Positions 2,081 to 22,451 of a stretch of 64,000 bases of DNA are shown here, in pieces. Source of the DNA: Heyndrickxia coagulans 36D1. Its GTDB lineage: Bacteria > Bacillota > Bacilli > Bacillales > Bacillaceae_C. Made by a program: the position numbers and the translations under genes. Every line of letters begins with the position of its first letter. The first letter of the stretch is position 1. The notes beneath the pieces are model-generated. The model was not told where the DNA came from. It worked only from the letters and a program-made list of their open reading frames with translations, and ran no database searches. The stretch is taken from contig NC_016023.1 in assembly GCF_000169195.2 (NCBI RefSeq), forward strand, positions 1,736,001-1,800,000, read 5' to 3'.

Positions 2081-3221
2081 ACCGGGGAGTACAATCGGCA
2101 TCATCGGCGGTGGCCAACTCGGGAGAATGATGGCCCTTGCCGCAAAAGAGGCAGGTTTCCGGATCATTGTCCTTGATCCTGTGCCGGATTGCCCGTGTGC
2201 GCAGGTAGCGGACGGGCAAATCACGGCGCCATATGATGATGAAGCGGCATTGCGGGCGCTCGGGGAACGATGCGATGTGCTCACCTACGAATTTGAAAAT
2301 ATCGATTATGAAACATTGAAAAAGGCCACCGGATTTGCCCATGTCCCACAAGGAGCGGAGCTGATCCGGATCACGCAGGACCGTATTTTTGAAAAAGAAG
2401 CGGTTGCAAAAGCAGGCGTCCGAGTTGCGCCGTACCGCGTCGTTGAAAACGCGGCGGATTTGAAAGAAGCTGTTGCGGAAATTGGCTATCCATGTATTTT
2501 AAAAACGGCGCGTGGCGGTTATGATGGAAAAGGGCAGATCACGCTTCGGCATGAAGGGGATCTTAAGGAAACGGATCCGCTTCTTGCCCACGGCGCATGT
2601 GTCCTTGAAAAAATGATTCCATTTACAAAGGAACTTTCTGTCATCATCACCCGGAACGAAGCAGGGGAAACGAGCCTTTTTCCGGTAGTTGAAAATATTC
2701 ATCACAACCATATTTTGCATCAAACAATCGCGCCGGCACGGGTGGAAAATACGGTGAAAAAAGAGGCGGAGCAACTCGCCCTAAAGGTGGCAGAGCGGCT
2801 TCATTTAACCGGTACGCTTGCAGTCGAAATGTTTTTAGAAGCGGACGGTACGCTTTATGTCAATGAACTGGCACCGCGCCCGCATAATTCCGGACATTAC
2901 TCAATTGAAGCCTGTTCGATTTCGCAGTTTGGCCAGCATATCCGCGCGATCTGCAACTGGCCGCTCCGCAAAGTGGAACTTTTAAAACCGGCTGTCATGG
3001 TCAATCTGCTCGGCCAGCACGTCGAAAGGGCGCTTACGCAAATTCCTTACCAGCCGGAGTGGTCGGTCCATCTTTACGGCAAAAAAGAAGCGAAATTCCA
3101 GCGGAAGATGGGCCATATTACAGTGCTGACAGAGGAAATCGAAGAGACTTTGCTTTCCCTTGAACAATCCGGTGTATGGCAGGATGTACAGAAACGATCG
3201 GAGGCAGCAGTGAATGATTGA
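2073..3221 (+). CDS. purK: N5-CAIR synthetase, PurK
   Basis: 382 residues of the ATP-grasp family. It carboxylates AIR with bicarbonate and ATP to give the PurE substrate. The N-terminal [12 protein letters not shown] loop and the ATP-grasp segment [14 protein letters not shown] are visible, as is the late [14 protein letters not shown] motif typical of PurK. The ATG at 2073 (MIKPGST) follows an AGGA site and overlaps the purE stop. The 3' end overlaps the purB start. Confidence 0.95.
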
Positions 3222-4509
3222 ACGCTATACAAGGCCTGAAATGGGCGCCATCTGGACAGACGAAAATAAATACAAAGCATGGCTTGAAGTGGAAATCCTT
3301 GCCTGTGAAGCATGGGCGGAGCTTGGGGAAATCCCGAAAGCAGATGTGCAAAAAATCCGTGAAAATGCCAGATTTGATGTTGAAAGAATTTTAGAAATTG
3401 AGCAGGAAACGCGCCACGATGTTGTCGCTTTTACAAGGGCCGTTTCGGAGTCGCTCGGCGAAGAAAGAAAATGGGTGCATTACGGGCTGACGTCCACGGA
3501 TGTGGTCGATACGGCGCTTTCTTATTTGATCAAACAGGCAAATGAAATCATTGAAAAAGACCTTGAACGTTTTATTGAAATTTTAAAGCAAAAAGCAATT
3601 GAACATAAATACACCGTCATGATGGGCCGTACCCACGGCGTCCATGCCGAACCGACCACTTTTGGCCTGAAAATGGCGCTCTGGCACGAAGAAATGAAAC
3701 GGAATCTCGAACGCTTCAGGCAAGCGGCGGACGGCATCCGTTACGGGAAATTAAGCGGTGCTGTCGGGACATATGCCAACATCGACCCGTTCGTTGAGCA
3801 GTATGTCTGCGAAAAACTCGGCTTAAAGCCGGCGCCAATTTCCACACAAACGCTGCAACGCGACCGCCACGCTTATTACATCGCGACCTTGTCTTTGATT
3901 GCGACATCGATTGAAAAATTTGCTACGGAAATCAGGGGGCTGCAAAAAAGCGAAACCCGTGAAGTGGAAGAGTTTTTCAGCAAAGGGCAGAAAGGATCGT
4001 CCGCGATGCCGCATAAACGCAACCCGATCGGTTCGGAAAATATGACCGGGATGGCGCGGGTGCTGCGCGGCTATATGGTAACGGCGTATGAAAATGTCTC
4101 CCTTTGGCATGAGCGCGACATCTCGCATTCTTCCGCGGAACGGATTATTTTGCCGGATGCAACGATTGCTATTAATTATATGCTGAACCGGTTCGGCAAT
4201 ATTGTGAAAAACCTGACCGTCTTCCCGGAAAATATGAAACGGAACATGGACAAAACGCTCGGTCTCATTTATTCACAGCGGGTTTTGCTTGCTTTGATTG
4301 ATAAAGGCATGTCCCGTGAAGCGGCATACGATACGGTGCAGCCAAAAGCGATGGAGTCGTGGGAGAAACAGGTACCGTTTAAGGAACTGTTGAAAAAAGA
4401 CCCGGCCATCCAAAGCAGGCTCACGGAAGCGGAACTCGAGGCATGCTTTGACTACCATTATCATTTGAAACATGTCGATACGATTTTTGACCGTCTCGGG
4501 TTGAACTGA
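3214..4509 (+). CDS. purB: Adenylosuccinate lyase, PurB
   Basis: 431 residues of the fumarase/aspartase superfamily. It cleaves SAICAR to AICAR and adenylosuccinate to AMP. The signature loop [17 protein letters not shown] is intact, as are the [11 protein letters not shown] and MMGRTHG segments carrying catalytic residues. The ATG at 3214 overlaps the end of purK by 8 nt. The gene ends before a GC-rich hairpin pair that separates it from purC. Confidence 0.96.
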
Positions 4510-4510
4510 A

Positions 4511-4577
4511 CCGGGGCGGCCGGGTGAATCCAGCCCGGCTGTCCCGGAAAATAAAAAGCGGCTGCAAAATTTGCAGC
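4511..4577 (+). repeat. Two intergenic hairpins between purB and purC
   Basis: A GC-rich imperfect palindrome spans 4511-4547: CCGGGGCGGCCGGG pairs with CCCGGCTGTCCCGG across a short loop. A second, perfect hairpin (GCTGCAAA/TTTGCAGC) spans 4561-4577. Neither ends in a T tract, so they are not standard terminators. They may stabilise RNA ends or attenuate expression within the operon. Confidence 0.7.
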
Positions 4578-4597
4578 AGGCTTAAGGAGGCAGGCGC

Positions 4598-5308
4598 ATG
4601 CTTGTATACGAGGGGAAAGCAAAACGGTTGTATGAAACAGAGGATCCGGATGTATTGCGCGTTGAGTATAAAGACTCGGCCACCGCGTTTAATGGCGTGA
4701 AAAAAGCGGAGATTGAAGGAAAAGGGCAGCTGAACAATGAGATTTCCAGCCTGATCTTTAAGCGGCTTGCGGAAAAAGGGGTCAAGAGCCATTTTATCCG
4801 TAAAATATCGGAACGCGAACAGCTTGTGCGCCGGGTGGAGATCATCCCGCTTGAAGTAGTCGTCCGCAATGTCGTGGCGGGCAGCCTTGCAAAGCGCCTC
4901 GGGCTTGAAGAAGGAACGCCGGCCGGGCAGCCGGTTGTCGAATTTTATTATAAAAAGGATGAACTCGGCGACCCGCTCATTACAGAAGACCATGTACGGC
5001 TTTTAGGGATTGCAAGTTCGGAAGATTTGCAGTTTTTAAGAAAACAGGCACTGGCTGTAAATGAGAGCCTAAAGGCGCTGTTTGCCGAAATCGGCGTCCG
5101 CCTTGTGGATTTCAAACTCGAGTTCGGACGCGGACGTGACGGGGCGATCCTGTTGGCTGATGAAATTTCCCCGGATACGTGCAGGCTCTGGGACCGGGCA
5201 ACGAATGAAAAGTTGGATAAAGATGTGTTCCGCCGGGATTTGGGCAGTTTAACGGAAGTTTACCAGGAAATCTTAAATCGCTTGAGAGGAGATATTTCGC
5301 ATGTATAA
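4598..5308 (+). CDS. purC: SAICAR synthetase, PurC
   Basis: 236 residues. It joins CAIR and aspartate with ATP to give SAICAR. Family segments seen are YEGKAKRLY near the start, [15 protein letters not shown] in the middle, and [11 protein letters not shown] followed by [14 protein letters not shown] near the C-terminus. Start ATG 4598 follows an AAGGAGG site. Ends overlapping purS by 8 nt. Confidence 0.96.
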
Positions 5309-19316: not shown

Positions 19317-22300
19317 ATGCAATTTTTAACCGACCGTATTCTGAACGGGCTGAACCCCGAACAGAAAGAAGCGGTCAAAACAACGGAAGGGCCGCTTTTG
19401 ATTCTTGCCGGGGCGGGAAGCGGCAAAACGCGGGTGCTGACTCGCCGCGTTGCCTATTTAATGGTGGAAAAAGGCGTGAATCCGTATAATATTTTAGCGA
19501 TTACGTTTACCAATAAGGCCGCCCGCGAAATGAAAGACAGGATTGCCGGGATCATGGGTGGTGCTGCTGAAGAAGTGTGGATATCCACCTTCCATTCGAT
19601 GTGCGTGCGCATTTTGCGGAGGGATATCGACAGGATCGGCTTTAACCGCAATTTTTCAATCCTTGACGCGACCGACCAGCTATCGGTCATTAAAAACCTT
19701 TTAAAAGAAAAAAATCTGGATCCGAAAAAATTTGATCCACGGGCGATTTTAGGGAAAATCAGCAGCGCGAAAAATGAACTGATTGATTTTGAGCAGTACG
19801 CCAAACAAGCGGGCGATTTTTTTGACCAAATTGTCAGTGACGTATACGAGGCTTACCAGCAACGCCTGAAGAAAAACCAGTCGCTTGACTTTGACGATCT
19901 GATCATGATGACAATCCAATTGTTCAAGCGCGTCCCGGAAGTCCTCGAATACTACCAAAGAAAATTTCAATACATCCACGTTGATGAGTATCAGGATAGT
20001 GCGACACGTTGCTAATTGAAAAGATTAGCCACCAGCGAAAGCTGGGAGAACTGATGATTCGAAGAGTCGAATGAAGGAGTAACGCCCGGAAAGGCTCTCC
20101 CTGATCCTCCGAATAGCGTCAAGATAGGTAAGGATCTTGAGGTTATAAGCTCGGTGAAGTCGGCTGAATGCTGCCGTAACAAGTCAAGTTGACGAAAGCT
20201 TTCCAGAGGTGGAAGGTGCAGCAAATAAGCCGGGGGTCTATAAAACACTCATGGTGAGAATGTTAGTGAACAACAACTAACTGACGAAAATCCGAATGTA
20301 CGGTTCTAGAGGTATAGATGCTAGAAATGGCATTGTCACGGTACGTGGCGCTAGTGAGGTGGAGTAAGAATTGTCTTTATGAAACACCTTGACGTGTTAC
20401 AGGCACGTCCAAGCTAGCAGGACTAGAGGATTCACCTAAAAGTGTATGTACAGATAGAATCATCGGAACGTGGGAAGCTGACAACGCGGAGGACTTACCG
20501 GCCAATGAAGCGGTGATAAGGAAAAGCGAAGGCTATAACTTATCTTTATGTCAGTGAAAGTGGTGGCACAGTACCGTTGAGGTGATGGAAACATCATGGA
20601 GGGATAGCCACTAGTCAATTTGTTAAAGCAACTACATTTATCGTCTATCAGGTTCGAGTATGACTAAGAGAAACGAAAGCTGCCAGTAACCGGGTGGTGA
20701 TTAGTTGACTGATAACAACCAAAAGCTAAAGAAAGACGAGAATGCCCTAGATAAAATCAACAAACTTCGCGATTTGGTTGGAAACGATAAAATAGTAGGT
20801 ATTATAACGCGATAACAAATTGATGGAACGCCGTATGAGGGGAAACTCTCATGTACGGTGTGAATGGGGGGAAAAGCTGGAGATGACTTCAAAGGCTTAC
20901 CTATCCATATCCAATAAATCCCAGTATACACTTGTGAAATTGTTGGCTTCAAGGTTTCAGAATTTGTGTGTTGTCGGGGATAATGACCAGTCGATTTACC
21001 GTTGGCGCGGTGCGGATATTGCCAATATCTTGTCATTTGAAAAAGATTACCCGAACGCGAAAGTCATTTTGCTCGAGCAAAACTACCGCTCGACGAAGAA
21101 AATTTTACAGGCGGCCAATAAAGTCATCGAAAACAACGCAAACCGGAAAAAGAAAAATTTATGGACGGAAAACGATGAGGGGCAAAATCTCGTCTATTAC
21201 CGGGCAGACAGCGAACAGGGGGAAGCGCAGTTTGTTGCCGGAAAAATTAAGGAACTCACTGCATCGGGTAAACGCCGGTACTCCGATATTGCCATTTTGT
21301 ACCGCACGAACGCCCAGTCCCGTGTCATCGAAGAAGTATTGATGAAATCGAACATTGCCTACAATATCGTCGGCGGCACCCGTTTCTACGACCGGAAAGA
21401 AATTAAAGATATTCTCGCGTATTTGCGGGTCATCGCCAATCCGGATGACGACCTCAGCCTGACCCGGATTATCAATGTGCCGAAACGCGGGATCGGTCAG
21501 ACTTCATTGGATAAGATCGTGCGTTATGCGGCGGACCAGGATGTTTCCTTATTTACGGCACTTCAGGAAATCGATTTTATCGGCCTCAGTCCGAAAATTA
21601 CCAAAGCCTGCCGAGAATTTTACGAGCTTATCAGCAATTTTACCCGGATGCAGGAATATTTATCCGTTACCGAACTGGTGGAAGAATTGCTGGACAAGTC
21701 CGGCTACCGGGATGCGCTGAAACTGGAAAAATCGCTTGAAGCCGAAAGCCGGCTCGAAAATATTGATGAATTTCTTTCAGTTGCCCAGGAATTTGAGAAA
21801 GAGAACGATGACAAAAGCCTTGTTGCCTTTTTGACGGATTTGGCGCTTGTCGCGGATATTGACCGGCTTGAAGAAGATGATGCACAAAAAGATGCCGTTG
21901 TATTAATGACGTTACATGCCGCCAAAGGGCTTGAATTTCCGGTTGTCTTCCTGATCGGCATGGAAGAGGGCATTTTCCCACACAGCCGTTCCCTCATGGA
22001 CGAAGCGGAAATGGAAGAGGAAAGGCGGCTCATGTATGTCGGCGTCACGCGGGCACAAGAGGAGCTGTACCTGACCAATGCTGAAGTGCGGACGCTTTAC
22101 GGGCGCATGAACATCAATCCTGTTTCACGGTTTATCAATGAAATCCCGGAAGAACTGATCGAGGATATTCGCAAGGAGGAAAAAGACCGGCTCGATTTCC
22201 GCCAGGTTTCAAGCGGCAATACGAGAAGAAAAGAGAAACGGCCGCCTGTTGTTCCTGCCTGGCAACAAAACAGGGCCGGCAATCCTTCCTGGCAAGTGGG

Positions 22301-22451
22301 CGATAAAGCCGAACATAAAAAATGGGGGATCGGCACGGTTGTCAGTGTCAAGGGAGAAGGCAAATCAGCTGAACTTGACATTGCATTCCCGAGCCCTGTC
22401 GGCATCAAACGGCTTTTAGCCGAGTTTGCGCCGATTACAAAAATAGAATAG
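19317..22451 (+). CDS. pcrA: ATP-dependent DNA helicase PcrA, split by a group II intron
   Basis: Coding parts are 19317-19998 and 20911-22451; joined they give 740 residues, the normal PcrA length. It is an SF1A 3'-5' helicase for repair and plasmid replication, essential in B. subtilis. Walker A AGAGSGKT is at residues 31-38. Exon 1 ends inside codon 228 after VDEYQD (motif II). Exon 2 continues [10 protein letters not shown], then [16 protein letters not shown] (motif III), [25 protein letters not shown] and the C-terminal Tudor-like [16 protein letters not shown]. Without splicing, exon 1 reads five codons into the intron and stops, giving a dead 232-residue product. No frameshift is seen in either exon. 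Confidence 0.95.
19999..20910 (+). mobile_element. ORF-less group II intron in pcrA
   Basis: The 5' end is GTGCGACACG, the group II GUGYG start. The 3' end is CCTATCCATAT, matching the usual AY end. Domain V is recognisable at about 20826-20862 as a GCCGTATGAG...CTCATGTACGGT hairpin with a GGAAA-type loop and a two-base bulge; the domain VI stem follows. Removing exactly 912 nt restores the pcrA frame (D-T-N-K). No reverse transcriptase or maturase is encoded. The only open stretch in the domain IV position (about 20704-20817) is 37 codons from a TTG. Splicing would need a maturase encoded elsewhere, or RNA self-splicing. Confidence 0.93.

Follow-up and report, generated by a model that had tools for sequence, protein, structure and literature searches.

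Introduction

Group II introns are stated to occur "virtually never" in housekeeping genes (excerpts of PMC3522654). The same excerpts cite a group II intron in recA of Geobacillus kaustophilus, which is called active (Chee and Takami 2005). C.te.I1 of Clostridium tetani has no open reading frame (ORF) and lies in a genome without a related intron-encoded protein (IEP). It was called the first such bacterial case (PMC3919590, in part) and was still the sole one according to passages of a 2015 review (PMC4424553). Here we describe an ORF-less group II intron that interrupts the helicase gene pcrA of Heyndrickxia coagulans 36D1 within the codons around motif II. It is located in a stretch of 64,000 nt of contig NC_016023.1, referred to as the window; coordinates are positions within this window unless another record is named.

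Like C.te.I1, the pcrA intron is an ORF-less bacterial group II intron, and it may be of the same kind; its genome encodes no cognate IEP but does encode four IEPs of other classes. C.te.I1, as far as the consulted part of its description goes, lies beside a surface-layer gene and undergoes alternative splicing, whereas for the pcrA intron a single exact excision from an essential helicase gene is predicted and a full-length sister is at hand. This sister, the pcrA intron of H. coagulans DSM 1, shares the insertion base and the first 735 nt and differs by its length of 2667 nt and by a 621-aa protein. The intron of G. kaustophilus is comparable in residing in an essential recombination/repair gene in Bacillales, but the gene differs (PMC3522654, in part). 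The TeI3 introns of Thermosynechococcus elongatus likewise lost the ORF within domain IV with remnants of both ends left. There, following the excerpts of PMC2882425, one deletion was followed by a spread to 17 copies in a genome that also encodes a driver IEP; in contrast, most hosts of the lineage described below contain one copy only, and the lineage comprises many separate deletions at one site. Group II introns in helicase genes are represented by B.th.I5 in the plasmid gene pXO1-08 with "two helicase domains" (excerpts of PMC3261151) and by an intron in a prophage/host helicase (excerpts of PMC12350094). Their hosts are plasmid, phage or DEAD-box helicase genes and not pcrA; the likeness is one of gene type.

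Introns in pcrA or addA were not found in the literature searched, with most subscription journals outside its scope, and an earlier mention is possible; the consulted passages of PMC4424553, PMC3919590, PMC2882425, PMC3522654, PMC12350094, PMC8919778 and PMC3261151 contain none. Taken by itself, the intron adds one new ORF-less case to a class already known. The novelty, within the limits of our searches, is the repeated loss of the helper at the same site in essential or repair helicase genes.

Results and Discussion

A first-pass annotation made from the letters of the window had proposed an ORF-less group II intron of 912 nt in pcrA. Its ends and length were confirmed, and a covariance search was positive with two group II models. 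The D1-D4 model RF02004 scored 196.1 bits (gathering score 34.5; full model 1-201 covered) and the domain V-VI (D5-D6) model RF00029 61.8 bits in a full-length match (gathering score 40). The D5-D6 fold has a z score of -4.83 against 200 shuffles and exhibits a bulged A 8 nt from the 3′ end. With GTGCGAC at 19999 the 5′ end fits the group II GUGYG, and the final AT fits AY. The intron is indeed ORF-less, with a longest stop-free stretch of 54 codons on its own strand and a 36-codon ORF remnant. The annotation had placed the insertion directly after the DEYQD codons; motif II is correct, but the cut lies one base further, after the first base of codon 228 (GAT-A/intron/CC-AAT, Thr-Asn; phase 1). 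Joining of the exons 19317-19998 and 20911-22451 restores the claimed 740-residue PcrA exactly and without stops; without excision, the 5′ reading frame stops at 232 aa. The best NCBIfam match of the 227-aa product of the 5′ exon is pcrA (TIGR01073) with 385.6 bits, a score of a partial protein against a whole-protein cut-off of 911.

The genome is a single contig of 3,552,226 bases with a completeness of 100%, in which no second intact PcrA was found by protein search (E 1e-10). Matches were limited to the two pieces, a 748-aa paralogue (31%) and a weak partial match in an AddA-sized frame of 1249 aa. Over 740 codons, pcrA of the window and of DSM 1 differ by a nonsynonymous divergence (dN) of 0.0087 and a synonymous divergence (dS) of 0.149 (dN/dS 0.058). 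Both exons behave alike (exon 1: dN 0.0037, dS 0.136; exon 2: dN 0.011, dS 0.156). These values point to purifying selection on both exons and are not what one would expect of a gene that is dead or split. In Bacillus subtilis, inactivation of pcrA is lethal, and the lethality is suppressed by loss of recA, recJ or mfd (PMC7385302, in part); the cell would then depend on splicing of the intron. A comparison with relatives, proposed in the first-pass annotation, revealed an uninterrupted pcrA in three of four other genomes of the genus (G001, G003 and G004; 81-88% identity) and a full-length intron in the fourth, DSM 1.

The DSM 1 intron (loci L039/L066) is inserted at the same base. Its domain IV encodes a 621-aa reverse transcriptase (RT)/maturase/HNH protein (TIGR04416, 335.6 bits at a cut-off of 300; Pfam RVT_1), in which HNH is marginally below the Pfam cut-off (21.3 versus 21.4 bits). 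The first 735 nt of both introns are identical (735/735). Thereafter the window intron resumes at DSM 1 position 2491; 1755 nt or 585 codons are gone, in frame. The last 177 nt show four differences, and D5-D6 is the same save single changes. The aligned flanks diverge by 3.76%; if the intron evolved at this rate, 0 differences in 735 nt would arise by chance with a probability of 6e-13. The simplest reading is that the intron homed recently into one of the two species or was exchanged between them, with strong constraint as the alternative. Judged from this alignment, the window intron arose recently from a complete mobile intron by deletion in frame. Mobile group II retroelements encode an RT/maturase; because only the 36-codon remnant is left here, the window intron is a derivative and not a member of them. 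A 9-base sequence near the left deletion edge recurs before the right edge. Recombination at this repeat, considered first, is one possible origin of the deletion; the junction lies 3′ of the repeat and does not coincide with it.

We then searched the genomes of 84,980 species for DE(Y/F)Q(D/N) codons followed by one base and GTGYGAC. The scan yielded 35 loci, of which 27, spread over 24 genomes, lie in helicase genes with the same junction. By NCBIfam, 18 of these genes are pcrA and 7 addA; L079 of Clostridium muellerianum is weakly AddA (135 bits versus 99 for PcrA, a weak fit), and L083 is UvrD-like without a clear name. The other loci (L062, L067, L074, L081, L084, L087, L089, L091) are chance matches with neither an RF02004 match nor an upstream helicase frame. 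The two C. muellerianum loci (L064, L079), truncated by contig or locus ends, were excluded from the intron table. The remaining 25 loci, together with a Peribacillus asahii plasmid and the window, supplied its 27 introns. In all 26 resolved introns the joined exons continue the helicase frame. The twenty-seventh, in pcrA of Epulopiscium D08 (L140, about 6250-3265), contains two D5-D6 matches and is probably nested (twin), as read from its sequence. It was dropped from the alignment, as the nearest D5-D6 yields no helicase frame. The P. asahii plasmid pOM18 (L051) carries an intron of this kind at the corresponding position in a PcrA/Rep-like helicase gene, which is annotated as two proteins without an intron feature and adjoins genes of a DNA methyltransferase and a DEAD/DEAH helicase.

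Within the order the pattern was present in 7 of 397 sampled genomes, including the window genome and DSM 1, and is therefore uncommon. A phage origin was rejected, as the junction pattern had no matches in viral_contigs and the best phage DNA covers 48% of the intron with 69% identity. In the preferred explanation, the intron belongs to a lineage that homes to the motif II (DEYQD) codons of UvrD-type helicases. Conserved protein motifs are conserved DNA targets, as for inteins and group I introns. The window intron has many counterparts at this site, so that the lack of an ORF and the location in an essential gene characterize the lineage and not one odd copy. Plasmids of Priestia megaterium (H11-H13) contain related introns with about 68% identity, which overlap genes annotated as "damage repair protein".

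The alignment of the 26 introns allowed the exon recognition to be predicted. Predicted pairing between exon-binding site 1 (EBS1) and intron-binding site 1 (IBS1) comprises 6 of 6 pairs in the window and is complete in 26/26 introns. The first base of EBS1 covaries with exon position -1 (U with A in 22/22, C with G in 4/4); the four exons ending in G all belong to addA with a Val codon. A second EBS1 candidate at intron nt 544 (TATCTT) was discarded, as it pairs fully in only 9/26 introns compared to 26/26 for the site at nt 374. Covariation was also seen at EBS3, which is G in 22/22 introns whose 3′ exon starts with C and A in 4/4 whose 3′ exon starts with T. Recognition of the 3′ exon by EBS3 defines subgroup IIB. 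This covariation thus assigns the predicted exon recognition to the IIB type. All features are collected in Table 1. Apart from the intron, a purine riboswitch aptamer (80 bits) was detected at 1361-1461 of the window.

Table 1. Features of the interrupted pcrA gene and its intron (window positions).
Feature	Position	Strand	Description
pcrA 5′ exon	19317..19998	+	codons 1-227 and first base of codon 228; Walker A, motif Ia, motif II DEYQD
IBS1 (AGGATA)	19993..19998	+	final six bases of 5′ exon; pairs with EBS1
Group II intron, ORF-less	19999..20910	+	912 nt, GTGCGAC...TCCATAT
RF02004 group-II-D1D4-5 match	20046..20244	+	196.1 bits, E 4e-45
EBS1 (TGTCTT)	20372..20377	+	intron nt 374-379; pairing and covariation
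EBS3 (G)	20426..20426	+	intron nt 428; covariation with initial base of 3′ exon
Domain IV segment 5′ of former ORF, likely DIVa	20646..20684	+	TATCAGGTTCGAGTATGACTAAGAG...; alignment
Maturase ORF remnant	20705..20815	+	TTG start, 36 codons, stop; N- and C-terminal ends fused in frame
Deletion junction	20733..20734	+	1755 nt of H. coagulans DSM 1 intron missing here
Domains V and VI (RF00029)	20826..20910	+	61.8 bits, E 9.9e-10, fold z -4.83
Bulged A of domain VI	20903..20903	+	candidate branch point; predicted fold, role inferred
pcrA 3′ exon	20911..22451	+	remainder of codon 228 through stop

Loss of the maturase ORF is not restricted to the window. Half of the resolved introns (13/26; 699-1071 nt) are ORF-less and the other 13 (2664-2723 nt) contain ORFs of 617-636 codons. 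In a tree built from the RNA parts, nine changes of the ORF state are required, at least seven of them forced by well supported branches, and no clustering of ORF-lessness was found (306 of 500 shuffles as low). Compared with their nearest ORF-bearing relatives the 13 ORF-less introns reveal 12 distinct junctions, although the junction alignments are patchy for B. chungangensis, Bacillus sp. B15-48 and Lysinibacillus antri. Only the two Kurthia introns, in pcrA and addA, share a junction; both are ORF-less, 893 nt long and separated by 16 differences. The Kurthia intron thus moved between two genes in its ORF-less form, and an RT from elsewhere was therefore needed. A segment of domain IV upstream of the former ORF is likely DIVa, the maturase docking site, a name given by its position and by excerpts of PMC2882425, which concern subgroup IIA introns. 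The window intron retains this segment; in B. chungangensis and Viridibacillus soli it has decayed, and Bacillus sp. FJAT-29937 and Metalysinibacillus have lost it by deletion.

A whole-genome search for related introns with a maturase gene, suggested in the first-pass annotation, was carried out for the window genome; it retrieved no other RF02004-class intron and no cognate maturase. The closest proteins are 46% and 39% identical in the RT part only. Four RTs exceed the TIGR04416 cut-off with 426-433 bits (three 474-aa copies and a 434-aa protein). They reside in introns of RF02001/RF01998 and RF02003 type, and YADD is intact in those that were read. In the other genomes, a search with the 621-aa protein (E 1e-20) gave a match in 22/25 genomes or records. 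For the hosts of ORF-less introns the related protein elsewhere in the genome is 62% identical in L. antri, 52% in Metalysinibacillus, 50% in FJAT-42315 and L. mangiferihumi, 49% in B15-48 and Kurthia, and 48% in L. xylanilyticus; the match in B. chungangensis is at 45% and that in the window genome at 46%. At this threshold no match was found in the drafts of FJAT-29937 and V. soli and in the P. asahii record, which holds the plasmid only. FJAT-29937 contains a single RT with 120.5-124.2 bits and no Pfam maturase domain, and V. soli contains RT fragments only; neither draft has a group II maturase above the NCBI cut-off, which does not prove absence, because repeated introns fall in the gaps of draft assemblies.

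A different situation is encountered in genome G192 (three contigs, 100% complete). Its only group II-type RT is a protein of 512 aa with 228 bits, below the cut-off, and with a type II maturase domain, encoded in an addA intron at QSI/YRF (L161, 4650-6188; L153). Its RT site reads YADS instead of YADD and, by eye, the motif-A aspartate is apparently E; the protein is possibly maturase-only. Among 31 RT ORFs compared (28 passing a filter that requires PQGG and three added later), 29 show YADD. The second exception beside G192 is Bacillus sp. B15-48 (L111), whose 621-aa intron protein has YAED in a genome that also contains other RTs. Both RT-degenerate proteins occur in genomes with ORF-less pcrA introns, which, with two cases, is suggestive only. 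The second intron in addA of Kurthia huakuii (L080) contains a 623-codon RT frame with YADD, 38.7% identical to the L153 protein.

Motif II is not the only site occupied in these genes. In G192, pcrA (L150, G192:C1:309000-317000) is interrupted by three ORF-less group II introns (543-1627, 2105-3059 and 4188-5156) at motifs Ia, II and VI, removal of which gives an intact reading frame. Four group II introns were read off the pcrA sequence of Metalysinibacillus jejuensis (L133), at motif Ia (NKA/AREM), motif II, motif III (QSI/YRWRG) and motif VI (YV/GLTRA). The one in motif III has a 387-codon frame, whose end by eye resembles the maturase part of the L153 protein. FJAT-42315 contains three introns in pcrA, Kurthia and Metasolibacillus two each, and L. 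mangiferihumi a single one, which occupies the motif VI site. At L128, L131, L134 and L135, pcrA introns with their own, more distant RTs are found at LDFDD/LIM (about aa 195) and motif VI (about aa 607).

Taking the data together, we consider it highly probable that the element is a group IIB-type intron of the motif II lineage, reduced from a mobile form by deletion of its ORF and spliced out to give PcrA. The window intron retains the parts of D1-D3, D5 and D6 visible to models and comparisons. In the proposed sequence of events the pre-mRNA would fold, with the 5′ exon end AGGATA held by EBS1 and the 3′ exon end C by EBS3; the 5′ splice site would be attacked by the bulged A of domain VI, and the ligated mRNA would be translated to the 740-aa protein. 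Because the genome retains no cognate maturase, splicing has to proceed without cognate help. Either the ribozyme and general host RNA factors would suffice, or a resident maturase of another class would help in trans; between host factors and one of the four resident maturases we regard the balance as about even. The recurrent ORF loss at the site would follow because selection on pcrA maintains the splicing ribozyme and nothing maintains the mobility protein.

Several observations weigh against this reading. Splicing and its site are predicted from sequence, and its efficiency is presumed. The identity of the 5′ 735 nt beside four differences in 177 nt fits recent transfer or recombination equally well, and for this reason the conservation of the intron is no proof of function. 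The four introns that carry the covariation fall in only two clades of the tree, which corresponds to about two independent retargetings between Thr and Val codons and not four. Columns considered for EBS2 pair fully with exon positions -12 to -8 in 18/26 or 12/26 introns at best.

A stricter version, in which splicing absolutely requires one of the resident 474-aa copies or the 434-aa protein in trans, has, in our view, slightly less than an even chance. The four RTs above the cut-off with YADD intact where read and the retained likely DIVa speak for it, as do the Kurthia intron, which needed an RT in trans for its movement between pcrA and addA, and the trans-acting maturases of relaxed specificity reported in Thermosynechococcus (excerpts of PMC2882425). 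However, the resident maturases belong to introns of other classes and match over the RT part only, and in FJAT-29937 the likely DIVa is deleted and the only RT found, far below the cut-off, has no maturase domain. A regulatory role, in which splicing would respond to Mg2+ or temperature and thereby control the amount of PcrA, seems very improbable. Nothing direct points to such a regulator, though any obligatory splicing step could limit the rate; pcrA is free of introns in three other genomes of the genus, and the number of its introns varies from 0 to 4 among relatives, resembling that of a passenger.

The intron could also be dead; in that case the two parts of PcrA would be translated separately and work as such, or the cell would do without PcrA. 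In the window, the 3′ reading frame extends upstream into D5-D6 without a stop and includes an in-frame ATG, and loss of pcrA in B. subtilis is suppressible by other mutations (PMC7385302, in part). But the frame from D5-D6 into exon 2 is open for at least 29 codons in only 18/26 introns (other frames 6/26 and 3/26) and hence is not a kept feature. Moreover, the 5′ piece stops right after motif II, both exons are constrained, and the pcrA genes of G192 and M. jejuensis would require four or five pieces, which renders this explanation very improbable. Least credible of all is an artefact of assembly or culture in the window genome. It could be advanced because a single genome of the species is at hand, the sister DSM 1 has the ORF and the 9-base sequence recurs near the edges. 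The genome, however, is one complete contig, the junction misses the repeat, four further differences to DSM 1 lie beyond it, and twelve other ORF-less introns at the site have other junctions.

Conclusion

Gene finders split genes interrupted in this way, as exemplified by the Peribacillus plasmid helicase. With ORF-bearing sisters as controls, the 13 ORF-less introns are natural test cases for the transition from a selfish intron to a dependent, splicing-only passenger. It can be tested with them whether a maturase-less bacterial group II intron splices well enough to sustain an essential gene, and what takes the place of its maturase. Tentatively, and with the odds somewhat against us, we propose that pcrA and addA of Bacillales may be permanent hosts, in which introns home to helicase-motif codons, repeatedly lose their mobility proteins and end as splicing-only ribozymes, some of them served by an RT-dead maturase in trans. 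If true, this would be a bacterial version of a step toward the splicing-only introns of organelles and, perhaps, the spliceosome.
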